Source: a bacterium (GTDB taxonomy: Bacteria; Gemmatimonadota; Gemmatimonadetes; Longimicrobiales; RSA9). Taken from it: a stretch of DNA of 64,000 bases. The translations under genes and the position numbers were made by a program. Location of the stretch: contig QGVH01000016.1 of NCBI GenBank assembly GCA_003242735.1, forward strand, positions 1-64,000, in the 5' to 3' direction. Shown here in pieces: positions 58,186-64,000 of the stretch. The notes under the pieces were generated by a model that was given only the letters and a program-made list of their open reading frames with translations, had not been told where the DNA came from and did no database searches. Positions within the stretch are counted from its first letter, which is position 1. Each line of letters opens with the position of its first letter.

Positions 58186-58613
58186 GGACGGTCCTCCAGT
58201 CGCAGAAGCTTCAGGTTGCAGTAGTCCACAGGGCCACGGACCAGCGCCCCTTCGGTCCTGTATACGGCGATCTCGAGCGTGACCGCGCAGACGGCCTCGA
58301 AGACGTGGCCGCCGATCGTCGTGCAGTCCGGGCGGCTGAACACGCCGTGGACGTGGGGGAACGGCTCGCCGTCCAGCAACGCGATGTTGCCGGTGAGCGA
58401 GCACGCCTCGAGCGGCTCGTCGAAGCGGTGGCGCTCGTACTCTTGCCGCGCGAGATGATAGAAGCCCAGCTCGGTGCCCTTCACCGACCCCAGGCCCGCG
58501 AGGACGGCCGCGTCCACCTCCCGGTGGCGCGCGAACTCGATGAGGCTGCGGATCAGCTCGTCGCCGGGCTCGAGTGCAAGAACGTGGCCGAAAGACGTCT
58601 CCTGTATGTGCAC
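58182..58613 (-). CDS. PPC/DUF296 domain protein
   Basis: 143 residues of the plant and prokaryote conserved (PPC, DUF296) domain: FGHVLALEPGDELIRSLIEFARHREVDAAVLAGLGSVKGTELGFYHLARQEY, LTGNIALLDGEPFPHVHGVFSRPDCTTIGGHVFEAVCAVTLEIAVY. The His/Cys pattern HVHG and GGH are the conserved core. Start is GTG at 58613 with GAGGAGCGTCGC before it; an upstream in-frame ATG at 58736 lacks family sequence. Overlaps the nucleotidyltransferase start, so the two are translationally coupled. Function of the domain in bacteria is unknown. Confidence 0.85.
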   Translation of the reverse strand: MHIQETSFGHVLALEPGDELIRSLIEFARHREVDAAVLAGLGSVKGTELGFYHLARQEYERHRFDEPLEACSLTGNIALLDGEPFPHVHGVFSRPDCTTIGGHVFEAVCAVTLEIAVYRTEGALVRGPVDYCNLKLLRLEDRP

Positions 58614-58771
58614 GCGACGCTCCTCGGCGCGTGGGAAGCGCGAAGATAGAGGCTGCCACGCCGCGGCGTCAAATGCCGCCGCAGACGGCGCCCCCGCCCG
58701 CGGCTCGCGCGCGAGCAGGAGATCGTCTATGTTCAACAGACCGATCCGGCACCGCCGGAGGAGGAGGCACC

Positions 58772-59569
58772 ATGAGGATGCGAGAGGACAGGATGCGGCC
58801 GCTCTGGCGTCGGGCGCCCGCGCTGATCGCCGTTCCGGCGTTGGTCGCCGGCGTGCTGCTGCCCGCGTGCGCCGCCAGGGCCCAGGAGCCCGGCGAGCCG
58901 CCCCGGCCCACGCGCGACCGCACCATCACGGTCACGGGCACGGGCGTGGTGGAGCGCGAGCCGGACCAGGCCGTCATCATGCTGGCCGTCGAGAACCGGG
59001 CGGAGACGGCCGAGGCCGCCGCCCGGGCGAACGCGGAGACCATGGACCGGGTGATCGCCGCCGTGCGCCGGCTCGGCATCGAGCGGGACCGGATCCGCAC
59101 GGCGTCTTACCAGTTGCACCCGGAGTACGCCCGGGACGAGCCGCGGCCCGGGCAGACGTCCGAGCCCCGCGTCGTCGGCTACCGCGCCATGAACATGGTG
59201 CGGGTCACTGTGGACGACATCGCCCGCGTCGGCGAGGTCATTGACGCCGCCCTCGGCGCGGGCGCCAACCGGGTGACCGGCCTCAGCTTCCAATTGCGCG
59301 ACCCCGAGCGTGCGCGCTTGGACGCGCTGGCGCTCGCCGTCCAGAACGCGCGCGCCGAGGCACAGGCGCTGGCCAGCGCGCTGGGCGAGACCCTGGGCCC
59401 TGCGCTCGACGTCAGCACCACGGGACGGCTTCCGCAGCCGGTGCCGTACCTGGCGGATGCGGTGCTGGCGAGGACCGCCGAATTCGCCACGGCACCCACG
59501 CCGATCGAGCCCGGCACGCTGCGCGTGGAGGCGACCGTCACCATCGTGTACCGGCTACAGCCGCGATGA
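58772..59569 (+). CDS. SIMPL-domain (DUF541) periplasmic protein
   Basis: 265 residues. Signal peptide (LIAVPALVAGVLLPACAARAQ), then the SIMPL domain: RTITVTGTGVVEREPDQAVIMLAVENRAETAEAAARANAETMDRVIAAVRRLGIERDRIRTASYQLHPEY, YRAMNMVRVTVDDIARVGEVIDAALGAGANRVTGLSFQLRD. Ring-forming periplasmic family (BP26/OMP28-like). Excellent GGAGGAGGAGG before ATG 58772. First gene of a five-gene plus-strand row. Confidence 0.92.
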   Translation: MRMREDRMRPLWRRAPALIAVPALVAGVLLPACAARAQEPGEPPRPTRDRTITVTGTGVVEREPDQAVIMLAVENRAETAEAAARANAETMDRVIAAVRRLGIERDRIRTASYQLHPEYARDEPRPGQTSEPRVVGYRAMNMVRVTVDDIARVGEVIDAALGAGANRVTGLSFQLRDPERARLDALALAVQNARAEAQALASALGETLGPALDVSTTGRLPQPVPYLADAVLARTAEFATAPTPIEPGTLRVEATVTIVYRLQPR

Positions 59570-60039
59570 GCGACTGGCGTCAACGTGTGCGCGACGGCCT
59601 CACGCGCAACATGGCCGTGACCTCGCCGTCCGCCGAGGACCCGGGCCTGCGCGGACGGACGTACGCCATCCCGTACGAGCAGGTCTGGCGCGCTGCGCGG
59701 CGCCTGGCCGACGGCGGGCTGCGGGGCTGGCGGCTCGTGGACGCCGACGACTACGACGGCCTGATTCGCGCCGAGGCACGGTCGGGCCTGCTCCGCAGGG
59801 TGGACGAGATCGTCATCCGCATCACCCTGGACGCCAACGCGCAGACGCGGGTGGACGCACGCTCGTCCTCCCGCGGCGGGCGCGGCGACCTGGGCTCGAA
59901 CGCGCGGCGGCTGCGCAGCTTCTTCGCCGCGCTGGACCAGGAACTGGGCGTGCCGCCGGGCGCCGAGCCGCCGCGGCTCCCGGTGCCGCCAGCGCCCGCG
60001 AAACCGCCCGCCACCGCTCGCTCCGATGCGGGTCATTGA
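59566..60039 (+). CDS. DUF1499 protein
   Basis: 157 residues. NMAVTSPSAEDPGLRGRTYAIPYEQVWRAARRLADGGLRGWRLVDADDYDGLIRAEARSGLLRRVDEIVIRITLDANAQTRVDARSSSRGGRGDLGSNARRLRSFFAALDQELG is the whole DUF1499 domain; the Pro-rich tail is not. Overlaps the SIMPL gene by 4 bases (ATGA) and the following amidohydrolase gene by 14 bases. Function unknown. Confidence 0.88.
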   Translation: MSDWRQRVRDGLTRNMAVTSPSAEDPGLRGRTYAIPYEQVWRAARRLADGGLRGWRLVDADDYDGLIRAEARSGLLRRVDEIVIRITLDANAQTRVDARSSSRGGRGDLGSNARRLRSFFAALDQELGVPPGAEPPRLPVPPAPAKPPATARSDAGH

Positions 60040-60883
60040 CTTCCACACCCACCCGTGGCGGCCCCAGGACTTCACTCCCGCCAACCGGGAGTACATCGAG
60101 CGGATCTCGCCGGCGGTCCGGGAACACGGGGACCGGCTCTCGGACGTGCGCTTCGCCGCGGAGCTGCTCCGGGCCGAGGGCGTCGAGCACGCCGTCATGC
60201 TCCCGGAGCACTGCCCCGCCACGTCGGGAATGGTGAGGACCGAGACGGTGATCGAGCTGTGCGCGGAGTCGGACGGCTTCTTCCTCCCGTTCGCGTGCGT
60301 GAACCCCAACACGGACCCGGCGCCCGCCCGTCTGCTCCGGAGCTGGCTGGCCAGCGCGCCGATCCGGGGGCTGAAGCTCTACCCGTCGTACCAGTTCTTC
60401 TATCCGGACGACCGGCGGCTCTACCCCGTCTACGAGGTCTGCCAGGAGCACCGCATCCCCGTGCTCTTCCACGTGGGCACGTCCATCCTGCCGGGCACGC
60501 GGCTCAGGTACTGCGATCCGTTGCGCCTGGATGACGTGGCCGTGGACTTCCCGGACCTGCCCATCGTCATGGCGCACGGCGGCCGCGGCTTCTGGTACGA
60601 GGCGTGCGCCACCCTGGCGACCGTCCACGCCAACGTCTACATCGACGTGGCGGGCCTCGTCCCGGGGCGGCTGCTCGAGCACTTCCCGCGGCTCCAGCGG
60701 CTCGCCGACAAGTTCGTGTTCGGTAGCGATTGGCCGGCCATGCCCAAGACCGTCTCGCACAACGTCCGCGCCATCGCGGCGCTGGGCCTGGCGCCCGATG
60801 CGCTGGACCGCATCCTCTACCGCAACGCCGCACGGCTGCTCGGACTCGACGCCGCCGGCGGACAGAGCGGAGGCGGCCGTTGA
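60026..60883 (+). CDS. Amidohydrolase-2 family hydrolase
   Basis: 285 residues, TIM-barrel of PF04909. Metal-binding HTHPW at 7-11 (His7, His9), RGLKLYPSYQFFYPDDRRLYPVYEVCQEHRIPVLFHVGTSILPG (third His), VMAHGGRGFWYEA (fourth His) and FGSDWPAMPKTVSHNV (catalytic Asp). Acts on a carboxylate-bearing or carbamoyl substrate; substrate unknown. Stop overlaps the TTG start of the next gene by one base pattern (TTGA). Confidence 0.88.
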   Translation: MRVIDFHTHPWRPQDFTPANREYIERISPAVREHGDRLSDVRFAAELLRAEGVEHAVMLPEHCPATSGMVRTETVIELCAESDGFFLPFACVNPNTDPAPARLLRSWLASAPIRGLKLYPSYQFFYPDDRRLYPVYEVCQEHRIPVLFHVGTSILPGTRLRYCDPLRLDDVAVDFPDLPIVMAHGGRGFWYEACATLATVHANVYIDVAGLVPGRLLEHFPRLQRLADKFVFGSDWPAMPKTVSHNVRAIAALGLAPDALDRILYRNAARLLGLDAAGGQSGGGR

Positions 60884-62217
60884 CGGCGACACGGGCGGCC
60901 GGTGCGCCCGGCTCCGCCGCTCCCGGACGGCCGCTGCTCCTCGAAGGCGCCCTGGTCCTCACCCTCGATGACGAGGGGACGGCCGGCGATCTCTCGGTCG
61001 CCGTCGAGGCCGGCCGCATTGCGGCGGTGGGGCCGAAGGAGGAACTCCGGCGCCGATTCCCGCGCGCCGAGCGCAAGGACTGCTCCGGCCACATCCTGTT
61101 GCCCGGCCTGGTCAACGCCCACCTGCACCCCGAGTTGCACGTGCTCAAGGGCGCGGTCGAGGAGCTCAACCTGCACGACTGGGACGACGCCGAGCACTTC
61201 GACGACGCGCTCGCGCTCCTCTCCTCACCCGAGGGCGCCTGGATCCAGCGCGCCGGCATCCGGGCCGCACTGGCAGACTGCCTGCTGACCGGCACCACGT
61301 GCGTGGCCGCCTACGGCGTCACCGTCGGCGCCGACGAGGTGACCGCCCGGGAGATGGTGGAGCTCGGACTGCGCGGCGTCGTCACGGTCCGCGATGTCCA
61401 CTTCGCACCCGTGGACACCCCGCCCGGCATGCCGTCGCGCATCTACCGGCTGCACGCGGAGGAGGCGCTGACCACCGCCGAGCTGGAGGCCGCGGCCCGG
61501 GCGCACGAGCGCGGCGAGCGCATCATCATGCACGCCGCCGAGACGCAGTACCGCATCCGGCTCGTCCGCGAGAGGTTCGGCACCACGACGATCCGCCTCC
61601 TCGAGCGCTACGGCCTGCTCTCCCCGCGGATGCTGCTCTCGCACGCGCTGTACGTCGACGAGGAGGAGCAAGCGCTCGTGGCGGAGCGCGGCGCCGCCGT
61701 GATCAGCTCACCCGCCGCCGAGATGAAGCTCTCGGACGGCATCGCGCCCATCGCCGAATACCTCGCCCGCGGCGTCACCGTCGCCCTCGGCACGGACACC
61801 GCCGTCTGCAACAACTCGAACGACCTGTTCCTCGAGATGCGCCAGCTCGGCCTCGTCCAGAAGCTGCGTTACGGCGCGGATGCGGTGCCCGCCGACCAGA
61901 TCCTGCGCGCGGCCACCCGCGGCGGCGCGCGGGCGCTCGGGGCGGAGGGCGAGTTCGGCGTGATCGTCGAGGGCGCATCCGCGGACCTGATCCTCGTGGA
62001 CACGGCGAATCCACGCCTGCAGCCGCTCGTGCACCGGGACGGCTACTCGAACGTCGTCGCCAATCTGGTGTACGCGGCCACGGGGCAGGACGTGACGGAC
62101 GTGATGATCGCCGGCCGCTGGGTCGTCCAGGACCGCCGGCTCCTCACGGCGGATGCCCCCGCGATCTGGCAGGAGCTGGAGCGCGCCGCCGTCCATCTCT
62201 ACGACCGGATCCTCTGA
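60880..62217 (+). CDS. Amidohydrolase of the chlorohydrolase/deaminase (TRZ/ATZ, SsnA-like) type
   Basis: 445 residues. TTG at 60880 preceded by GGAGGCGGCCG is chosen. Beta-sandwich N-region followed by NAHLHPELHVL (His81, His83), RIIMHAAETQ (metal His), LLSHALYVDEEEQALV (His) and LGTDTAVCNNSNDLFLEMRQLGLVQKL (Asp). This DTAxCNNSNDLF sequence is characteristic of the TRZ/ATZ-SsnA-guanine deaminase group. Likely hydrolyses an aminohydro group from a heterocycle. Coupled to the amidohydrolase-2 gene. Confidence 0.88.
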   Translation: MTATRAAGAPGSAAPGRPLLLEGALVLTLDDEGTAGDLSVAVEAGRIAAVGPKEELRRRFPRAERKDCSGHILLPGLVNAHLHPELHVLKGAVEELNLHDWDDAEHFDDALALLSSPEGAWIQRAGIRAALADCLLTGTTCVAAYGVTVGADEVTAREMVELGLRGVVTVRDVHFAPVDTPPGMPSRIYRLHAEEALTTAELEAAARAHERGERIIMHAAETQYRIRLVRERFGTTTIRLLERYGLLSPRMLLSHALYVDEEEQALVAERGAAVISSPAAEMKLSDGIAPIAEYLARGVTVALGTDTAVCNNSNDLFLEMRQLGLVQKLRYGADAVPADQILRAATRGGARALGAEGEFGVIVEGASADLILVDTANPRLQPLVHRDGYSNVVANLVYAATGQDVTDVMIAGRWVVQDRRLLTADAPAIWQELERAAVHLYDRIL

Positions 62218-62221
62218 GCCC

Positions 62222-64000
62222 ATGACCGCCAACGCTGCCGGACCCGCGCTCCCCGACCGTCTCCCCGTCATGCCGATGCGGAGCACCATCGTCTTCCCGC
62301 TCGGCGTGCTGGGCGTGCAGATCGGCATGCGTCCCACCCTCGAGATGCTGGCGGAGAACCCCGCCGAGAGCCTGATCGTCGCTGCGGTGATCGCGCCCGG
62401 CGGGCCGGACGATCCGATCGACCCGCGAGCGCTCGAGAAGATCGGCGTCGCCGCCCGCCTCTCCGACCGCCTGAACCTGCCCGGCGGGACGGTCCAGGCC
62501 ACGCTCCAGGGGCTGCACCGCATTCGCCTCGTCTCCGTCGAGGAGGCGCACGGCTTCGTCGCGCGCGTCGAGCCGGTGGTGGAGACGCCGGTCCCGGAGG
62601 ACGTGGCGGACGACTTGATCGCCCGCATCCTCACCGCGCTCGAGGCGCTGGCCGCGGAGGTGGACCGCATCTCGCCCGAGGTCCCGCGCATCCTGCGCAT
62701 GAACGTGGCGGACCCCGGCCGCTTCGCGGACCTCGTCGCGACGCTCGCCAACTTCAGCGCCGCCAGCAAGGACCGCATCCTCCAGCACCTGGACGTCCGC
62801 GAGCGCCTGGAGTACGTCCTGGAGGAGCTGGAAGGCCAGCTCCGACGCGTGCGCGAGGTCGAGCAGGCCAGGGATGAGGCCGCCGCACGGGAGGAGGCGC
62901 AGAAGCCGATGACGCCGGCGGATCGCGCGGCCGCGCTCCGCCACCGCATCAACATGCTGCGCGCCGAGCTGGGCGAGGTGGATCCTGTCGAGCGCGAGGT
63001 GATCGAGCTGCTGCGCCGCATCGACGCCGCGCGTCTGCCCGCACGTGCGGCGGCCGAGGCCCGCGCCGAGGTCGAGCGCCTGCGCAGCGTCAACCCCACC
63101 TCCACCGAGGCGAGCGACATCCGCAGCTACGTGGACTGGCTGCTCCACATGCCGTGGACCCAGCGGGCGACGTCCGGCACCGACGCCATCGACCTCGCCG
63201 CGGTGCGCAAGGCGCTGGACGAAGAGCTGCTCGGCCTCGACGACCCCAAGGACCGACTGCTCGACTACCTGGCCGTCGCCAAGCTCCGCGGCGACCTGCG
63301 CGGCCCGATCCCCTGCATCGTCGGCCCGCCCGACGTCGGCAAGACCGCGCTCGTCGCCGCCCTCGCCCGCGGTCTCGGCCGGCCACTCGCCAGTCTCGAC
63401 CTCGGCGGCCGCGGCGAGTCCGCGCTCATCGGTACACGCCGCACCCGCTCCGGCGCGCAGCCCGGCAAGATCGCCGGCGCGCTGCGCGACGTGGGTGTGC
63501 GGGACCCCGTGTTCCTGCTCGAGGAGATGGACCAGGTCGGGCTGGGCAAGGTGGACGGCGACCCGGTCGAGGCGCTCGAGGAGATCCTGGAGTGGGATGG
63601 CCGCAGGCAGTTCGTGGACCGCTACCTCGACGTGCCCTTCGACCTCACCGACGTGCTCTTCATCGCGACGGCCCACGACTTCTACCGTGTGCCGAGCGAC
63701 CTGCGCGACCTGCTCGTCGAGATCCGGATCGCCGGCTACACGCCCGAGGAGAAGGTCGACATCGCGCTCGAGCGCATGCTGCCCCGCCTGATCCGGGAGC
63801 ACGGGCTCGAGCCCGACGACGTCGCCTTCGACCGCGACACGCTCTTCTTCCTGGCCCGCGGCTACGCCCGCGACTCCGGCCTCGGCCTCCTGCACCGCGC
63901 GCTGGGAACGCTGCTGCGCACCCGCGCCCGCGCGAAGGCCCAGGGCGACACCGAATGCTGGACGTTCACGCCCGAGAAGATCGAGAGCATCCTCGGCCTG
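62222..64000 (+). CDS. Lon-type protease with degenerate ATPase motifs (runs off the window)
   Basis: 593 codons are present; the gene continues past the window. N-terminal Lon substrate-binding domain (PVMPMRSTIVFPLGVLGVQIG at the start), coiled linker to about 300, then the AAA+ domain. Key motifs depart from Lon: Walker A reads GPPDVGKT (Gly to Asp), Walker B reads FLLEEMDQVG (normally LDEID), the Arg-finger region is LRDLLVEI (normally LRDRMEVI), and the sensor-2 region is ARDSGLGLLHRAL (normally TREAGVRNLER). Four separate canonical ATPase residues are altered. The C-terminal Ser-Lys protease domain lies outside the window. ATG at 62222, 4 bases past the preceding stop. Confidence 0.85.
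   Translation, partial: MTANAAGPALPDRLPVMPMRSTIVFPLGVLGVQIGMRPTLEMLAENPAESLIVAAVIAPGGPDDPIDPRALEKIGVAARLSDRLNLPGGTVQATLQGLHRIRLVSVEEAHGFVARVEPVVETPVPEDVADDLIARILTALEALAAEVDRISPEVPRILRMNVADPGRFADLVATLANFSAASKDRILQHLDVRERLEYVLEELEGQLRRVREVEQARDEAAAREEAQKPMTPADRAAALRHRINMLRAELGEVDPVEREVIELLRRIDAARLPARAAAEARAEVERLRSVNPTSTEASDIRSYVDWLLHMPWTQRATSGTDAIDLAAVRKALDEELLGLDDPKDRLLDYLAVAKLRGDLRGPIPCIVGPPDVGKTALVAALARGLGRPLASLDLGGRGESALIGTRRTRSGAQPGKIAGALRDVGVRDPVFLLEEMDQVGLGKVDGDPVEALEEILEWDGRRQFVDRYLDVPFDLTDVLFIATAHDFYRVPSDLRDLLVEIRIAGYTPEEKVDIALERMLPRLIREHGLEPDDVAFDRDTLFFLARGYARDSGLGLLHRALGTLLRTRARAKAQGDTECWTFTPEKIESILGL

Follow-up and report, generated by a model that had tools for sequence, protein, structure and literature searches.

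Can a Lon protease give up the residues with which it burns ATP and still be a protease? The question is raised by the last open reading frame of a 64,000-nucleotide stretch of DNA (positions 1 to 64,000 of contig QGVH01000016.1, assembly GCA_003242735.1; hereafter the window) from a bacterium of the order Longimicrobiales in the phylum Gemmatimonadota. We call the protein encoded from position 62222 LonW, and LonW with its orthologues clade W. The original prediction was that of a Lon-type protein with altered motor motifs that might serve as an inhibitor, a passive chaperone or an ATP-independent protease. The reading that we prefer, and to which we give about two chances in three, is that LonW is a soluble, LonA-derived, self-compartmentalizing Ser-Lys protease whose AAA+ ring would no longer be an ATP-driven motor and which would work without ATP hydrolysis on unfolded substrates.

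LonW starts with an ATG at 62222, 4 bases beyond the point where the amidohydrolase frame before it stops, and is open through 64000. The window (bases 1-64000 of contig C16) thus holds the first 593 residues of this LonA-type protein with a degenerate AAA+ motor (62222..64000, plus strand, as are all window features given below); reading on in the contig, the frame stops at position 64747, past the window end, giving 841 residues. The Pfam domains LON_substr_bdg, AAA, Lon_lid and Lon_C follow one another in LonA order, with every LonA domain present. The N-terminal substrate-binding domain occupies residues 14-204 (62261..62833; PF02190, E 1.4e-25). A PDB search with LonW matched 63 distinct sequences, the top one being E. 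coli Lon 6u5z (E 1.1e-154), and the score against the lon equivalog model TIGR00763 was 602.1 bits, slightly below the cut-off of 608.05. An assembly oddity is ruled out: the gene is internal to a 90,636-base contig, the genome (3.71 Mb in 56 contigs) is 99.6% complete, and many assemblies carry W.

The motor sites were read by alignment with E. coli Lon, using the Walker, sensor and arginine-finger numbers given in section 2.7 of PMC9569914. In Walker A (63323..63346) Lys362 and Thr363 of E. coli are kept as K374 and T375, and the fourth residue, the Gly of GPPGVGKT, is Asp in LonW. In Walker B (VFLLEE, residues 430-435, 63509..63526) Asp423 has become Glu434 and Glu424 is kept as Glu435. The sensor-1 residue Asn473 is His485 (63674..63676), the arginine finger Arg484 is Leu497 (63710..63712) and the sensor-2 residue Arg542 is Gly555 (63884..63886). 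All of the altered motifs named in the original prediction were found, namely GPPDVGKT (residues 368-375), LLEEMDQ (432-438), LRDLLVEI (494-501) and ARDSGLGLLHR (549-559). A change missing from that list lies in pore loop 1 (GTRRTRSGAQPGK, residues 404-416, 63431..63469), where Tyr398 of E. coli Lon, which we take to be the gripping residue of this loop, is Arg409; among W proteins the position holds Arg in 20 of 21 and Gln in the other.

The protease is a different matter. The Ser-Lys pair, which was to be sought in the extended sequence, is intact just past the window end, Ser679 and Lys722 of E. coli corresponding to S691 and K734. Pro678, Asp676, Glu614, His665 and His667 of E. coli Lon are kept as well. 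K734 follows P690-S691 at a distance of 43 positions, the same spacing as for S679 and K722, and the alignment with E. coli Lon is ungapped over residues 620 to 787, the inserts characteristic of LonC being absent. The Pro, Ser and Lys of the active site are found in 21/21 W proteins, and the Ser and Lys in all 22 W loci that reach them.

Are these changes peculiar to one gene or shared by a lineage? In 61 genomes (LonW's own and 60 relatives) there are 25 W loci including its own, all from two families of its order, f1 and f3, besides more distant Lons. Best-segment identity to LonW is 57-76% for the remaining 24 loci, some of which are cut by contig ends. When 154 genomes of the order were scanned with a W AAA+ profile, 24 carried W (E 1e-85 or better), all of them from f1 and f3; genome G005, in which W is split over two contigs, is not counted among these 24. 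The named W loci come from metagenome assemblies, and 13 of the 14 are labeled as gemmatimonads, including one Longimicrobium sp. and one Gemmatimonas sp. The remaining one, L076 (QGUN01000106.1), is titled Proteobacteria bacterium ZC4RG40 and is the closest W relative, 78% identical to LonW; its label may be a misassignment because the other 13 are labeled as gemmatimonads. Twelve of the 14 have the same BLAST score and length as loci already counted, and one named locus, L080, matches a locus of family f3; the new ones, L076 and L089, are outside the counts of 21.

The trees and the column, fixed-residue and per-sequence motor counts do not include four W loci truncated at contig ends (L027-L030); where readable, these show the same kinds of change. 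The long-branched L055 was left out of the column, fixed-residue and motor-residue counts and of the tree built without AAA+ columns. Asp423, Arg484, Arg542 and Tyr398 are all lost in 21/21 full-length W proteins, the window's own included, and because all 21 are altered the changes are not sequencing errors. The sensor-1 Asn is lost in 19/21. When eight motor residues were scored per sequence, 4-7 were lost in each of the 21 W proteins and none in any of 17 A3, 23 A1 or 22 f2 Lons. Alignment with Lon paralogues of the same phylum, a check that accompanied the original prediction, therefore places the losses clade-wide in W and finds none in A3, A1 or f2.

Is the W motor domain then simply falling apart? 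The reference was the set of columns with a conservation of at least 97% among 73 canonical Lons (same-phylum Lons plus E. coli Lon). In most W proteins 21 of the 79 such columns in AAA+ are lost, as are 2 of the 12 linker columns, but none of the 6 N-domain columns and none of the 46 protease columns; Fisher's test of AAA+ versus protease loss gives p 2.9e-5 for columns that are not fully independent. With other foregrounds the same test gave AAA+ losses of 6/76 (A3), 3/79 (A1) and 0/72 (f2), and protease losses of 0/46, 5/51 and 0/47, respectively. Mean identity to A1 tells the same story: in the protease it is 0.508 for W and 0.517 for A3, and in AAA+ 0.412 for W and 0.529 for A3. Selection was estimated as dN/dS by NG86, a method that is crude at high GC, in six W pairs, and the ratio was <1 in every domain of all six. 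For the three closest pairs the AAA+ ratio was 0.058-0.163, that of the protease 0.034-0.175 and that of the N part 0.097-0.335; control values in AAA+ were 0.033-0.070 for A3 pairs and 0.264 and 0.362 for A1 pairs. On these estimates the W AAA+ domain looks to be under purifying selection.

It has also acquired residues of its own. Counting as W-specific those present in at least 20/21 W members and in <5% of canonical Lons, 22 residues are fixed, 17 of them in AAA+. These include R409 (pore loop 1), V444, E450, E453, R461 (21/21), D486-F487, E500 and D551. In E. coli LonA, pore loop 1 is given as residues 393-404, pore loop 2 as 428-434 and the RKH loop as 445-466 (all in PMC9569914), and the changes at V444 and R461 fall within the pore-loop-2 and RKH-loop ranges. 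Because of the selection estimates and these fixed residues, the AAA+ domain looks rebuilt rather than abandoned.

A view of W as a paralogue in decay, or as a gene that is turning into a pseudogene, could be argued from its patchy presence in both f1 and f3 and from genome G010, whose copy is in two pieces on two contigs (L029; G010:C227:6912-7865) with an in-frame stop in one, that is, a broken copy or an assembly error. About nine W matches were listed with one internal stop; their frames are nonetheless open over the full Lon length, and in L007, for which length was compared, the stop lies in the variable tail, right where the match ends. Against decay stand the open frames of 805-859 residues in 21/21 W loci not cut by contig ends, the dN/dS values <1 in all domains, the complete retention of conserved protease columns and the new fixed residues in AAA+. 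Decay is thus largely refuted and seems to us very improbable; for the genes examined, a pseudogene or frameshift is ruled out by the open frames together with the selection.

Where did W come from? W forms a single clade (SH-aLRT 100) in a tree of 65 of 95 rows with E. coli Lon as root, and its sister is A3, a third LonA paralogue of family f7 in the same class (SH-aLRT 99); a tree of 54 of the 95 rows built without the AAA+ columns still supports the W + A3 group at 99. These trees comprised LonA-type rows, with no LonB or LonC among them. All eight scored motor residues are kept in 17/17 A3 proteins (L104-L119 and L142). In a sample of 200 genomes from the phylum, with matches of E 1e-85 or better counted, W occurs only in f1 and f3 (5 genomes) and A3 only in f7 (62 genomes). 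The four losses common to all W proteins are most simply placed on the W stem, as far as these sequences allow; the Walker A Thr is lost in only part of the clade (15/21). Next to W + A3 in the tree are two family f10 proteins. One f10 Lon, L140 (G128:C13), has Ser at sensor-1 and a changed pore loop, and may represent an early stage in the alteration of the motor, or a separate one.

These observations lead us to suggest, tentatively and at somewhat less than even odds, that W represents a second, independent motor-less Lon. On one stem, an ATP-driven LonA paralogue would have been stripped of the residues for hydrolysis and pulling. Its AAA+ ring, remodeled with new fixed residues and a pore loop that carries Arg, would have turned into a passive and selective gate above a protease chamber that stayed as it was, and its nucleotide site would at most hold a static ligand. 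Independence from LonC is argued from the protease type, the N-domain and the nearness to A3.

A structural model is compatible with a ring component that has kept its shape. The orthologue L076 was modeled with AlphaFold2 from 15 alignment rows (mean pLDDT 75.1, with AAA+ blocks mostly at 81-93; pTM 0.47, the domain arrangement being uncertain). Lon proteases head the list of structures that the model resembles. Over 518 residues it superposes on Yersinia Lon (6on2) with rmsd 6.5 (Z 34.5), over 336 on the AAA+ domain of E. coli Lon (6n2i) with rmsd 2.3 (Z 34.3), and over 180 on the protease of E. coli Lon (3wu6) with rmsd 1.5 (Z 27.7). No LonC chain is among the 50 structure matches listed, which is uninformative about the fold. 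The motor fold is thus predicted to be kept although the motor chemistry looks lost.

LonW is not the sole lon gene of its genome. A second, canonical lon gene, the presence of which had been proposed as a check, lies on contig C10 and encodes a LonA of 939 residues with intact motifs (898.8 bits against the lon equivalog model). All 25 W genomes have another Lon match; motifs were read in 13 of these, and all 13 are canonical. These LonW relatives are not known to be active ATPases, and the original prediction is therefore not refuted in the way that it had foreseen (a sole lon gene with ATPase-proven relatives). The canonical protein (L005:5055-7874, G000:C10) carries an Ala/Glu/Gly-rich insert of ~110 residues directly before Walker A, and the BLAST matches of several related canonical Lons are interrupted at the same site. 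The LonW genome also has a LonC-like gene (L123:1360-3312, minus strand, G000:C22) with AAA_32, LonB_AAA-LID and Lon_C domains; the L123 protein has a Cys-x3-Gly-Leu stretch resembling a LonC insert. As to LonC as a substitute for W, AAA_32 proteins occur in 18 of the order's 154 genomes; W is present in two of these 18 (G000 and G001), and no clear pattern emerges.

How might LonW work? Its mode of action can be pictured by analogy with MtaLonC, because the pattern of loss is similar and the Walker A Gly-Lys is kept. Six LonW subunits would form the usual chamber. The AAA+ layer would be a fixed gate, with an Arg-containing pore loop in place of the Tyr pump; unfolded or disordered chains would be captured by the N-domain, enter by diffusion and be cut inside the chamber without ATP hydrolysis. 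That the pore-loop-1 Arg favors acidic or disordered chains is a guess. The invariant Gly-Lys suggests that nucleotide may still bind, perhaps as a static or regulatory ligand as in MtaLonC, and ATP-powered unfolding would be left to the canonical LonA of the same cell. Among the three roles originally offered, ATP-independent protease is favored because the Ser and Lys are universal in the loci that reach them, no conserved protease column is lost and a canonical lon is present in the genome. Inhibitor and pure chaperone are disfavored, since neither would presumably need the kept active site.

Several points weigh against the preferred reading. The window protein itself retains the Walker A Lys and Thr and the Glu424 equivalent, and Asp to Glu in Walker B is a mild change, so that slow hydrolysis is possible. 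Across the clade Glu424 is retained in 19/21 proteins, the sensor-1 Asn in 2/21, and Thr or Ser at the Walker A Thr position in 6/21. The three more distant W pairs have AAA+ dN/dS values of 0.209-0.457. W is missing from G008 and G009, fairly complete genomes of the window's own family, and is therefore dispensable. Finally, the hexamer is assumed.

The retained residues could instead belong to an ATP-gated enzyme of unusual chemistry, in which nucleotide binding opens the protease and hydrolysis is slow or absent. G373 and K374, invariant in 21/21 W proteins, and the widely kept Glu424 fit such an enzyme, as does the binding of nucleotide without hydrolysis described for MtaLonC in PMC3391209. 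We nevertheless think it unlikely, since in 15/21 W proteins (the window protein not among them) Arg, Lys or Ala replaces the Walker A Thr, the loss of the pore-loop Tyr in all 21 means that no canonical translocation is to be expected, and peptide cleavage by MtaLonC is, according to the same source, similar with and without nucleotide. Could LonW act on the canonical enzyme instead? It might co-assemble with LonA1 into mixed rings and tune it; lacking an arginine finger and sensor-2, it would switch off neighboring ATP sites while its protease sites still contributed. The presence of another Lon in all W genomes, canonical wherever it was read, would suit this arrangement; loss of the trans-acting arginine finger would be expected to affect a neighbor more than any other change, and heteromeric Lon rings can be built, to judge from the title of PDB 8k3y ('5+1'). 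Yet LonW and the canonical lon are on different contigs in their own genome, W and A1 are only ~41% identical in AAA+, and rings made of LonW only are the simpler explanation for a protease that is intact and unaccelerated, so that mixed rings strike us as rather unlikely. The preferred reading remains a protease working without ATP hydrolysis.

Does the gene neighborhood help? LonW ends a tight same-strand string whose members overlap or nearly touch: a SIMPL (DUF541) protein (58574..59569; PF04402; start codon as listed, provisional), a DUF1499 protein overlapping it by 4 bases (59566..60039; PF07386), an Amidohydro_2 amidohydrolase overlapping DUF1499 (60026..60883; PF04909) and an Amidohydro_1 amidohydrolase (60730..62217 as the listed frame, the real start probably being further in; PF01979) that ends 4 bases before LonW. 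In 10 loci compared, a divergent NTP_transferase-cluster gene is upstream of W in nine, its own included, and SIMPL, DUF1499 or amidohydrolase genes precede W in part of them. The row noted in the original prediction thus stands, on Pfam evidence, but its value as a functional clue does not: the neighbors of LonW indicate neither substrate nor partner. Shared neighbors of W and A3 were not found in 13 loci, a weak negative as only L148, L149, L150 and L154 had 2-3.5 kb of flank, the rest having little, and the SIMPL query was misframed.

Automatic annotation would probably label the LonW gene an ATP-dependent protease. If our reading is true, it suggests that Lon has dispensed with ATP on two or more occasions, and that in some genomes a protease that needs no fuel stands alongside one that burns it. 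In literature searched by title and abstract opening, with subscription journals and preprints outside its scope, no LonA with a lost motor was found among the matches listed; searches by title and abstract for a Lon protease of Longimicrobi* or Gemmatimonadota found no paper, and for Gemmatimonadetes unrelated ones only. The motor-less Lon known so far is LonC, which is distant from LonA, whereas W adjoins a canonical sister that is ~50% identical to it and has its domains and active site in common with W. W and A3 are thus a testable pair for telling AAA+ residues needed for fold, gate and protease activation from those needed only for ATP-driven pulling.

What is known of LonC comes from MtaLonC (TTC1975). 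As described in PMC3391209, it is a hexamer without Mg or nucleotide, has no ATPase activity and binds six nucleotides per hexamer; its motor has a Walker-A-like GPPSLGKHE and has lost the Walker B Glu, the sensors and the arginine finger. It cleaves unfolded but not folded proteins without ATP, cuts a Lon peptide about as fast in the presence of nucleotide as in its absence, and has LonC-specific inserts near the helix of the catalytic Lys and in helix alpha5. LonA is defined in PMC9569914 by an N-terminal domain and a Pro before the catalytic Ser, where the LonB/LonC active site has Asp. Set against these accounts, LonW resembles LonC in its similar motor-residue losses with GK kept (21/21 W) and in its occurrence beside LonA genes, and the protease domain of LonC, like that predicted from sequence for LonW, is active. 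Unlike LonC, LonW has a LonA N-terminal domain, Pro rather than Asp before the Ser (21/21 W), no LonC inserts and an AAA+ domain clearly recognizable as that of LonA; its Walker B loss is the Asp, whereas that of LonC is the Glu, and among the sequences searched LonW is closest to LonA paralogues of the same class. Membership in LonC is ruled out by the N-domain, the lack of inserts and the Pro, and descent from LonA is indicated by the N-domain, the Pro, the dyad spacing and the best relatives.

With canonical LonA (E. coli Lon, TIGR00763) LonW shares domain order, length, N-domain, lid and a LonA-type active site, but most of the hydrolysis, sensing and gripping residues of its motor are changed. 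By its sequence, then, LonW is a LonA-derived, LonC-like variant that fails to show LonA's complete motor and is not a member of LonC. Its closest counterpart is the sister clade A3, 47-53% identical to it in the best BLAST segment, in which, unlike LonW, the motor residues are canonical.
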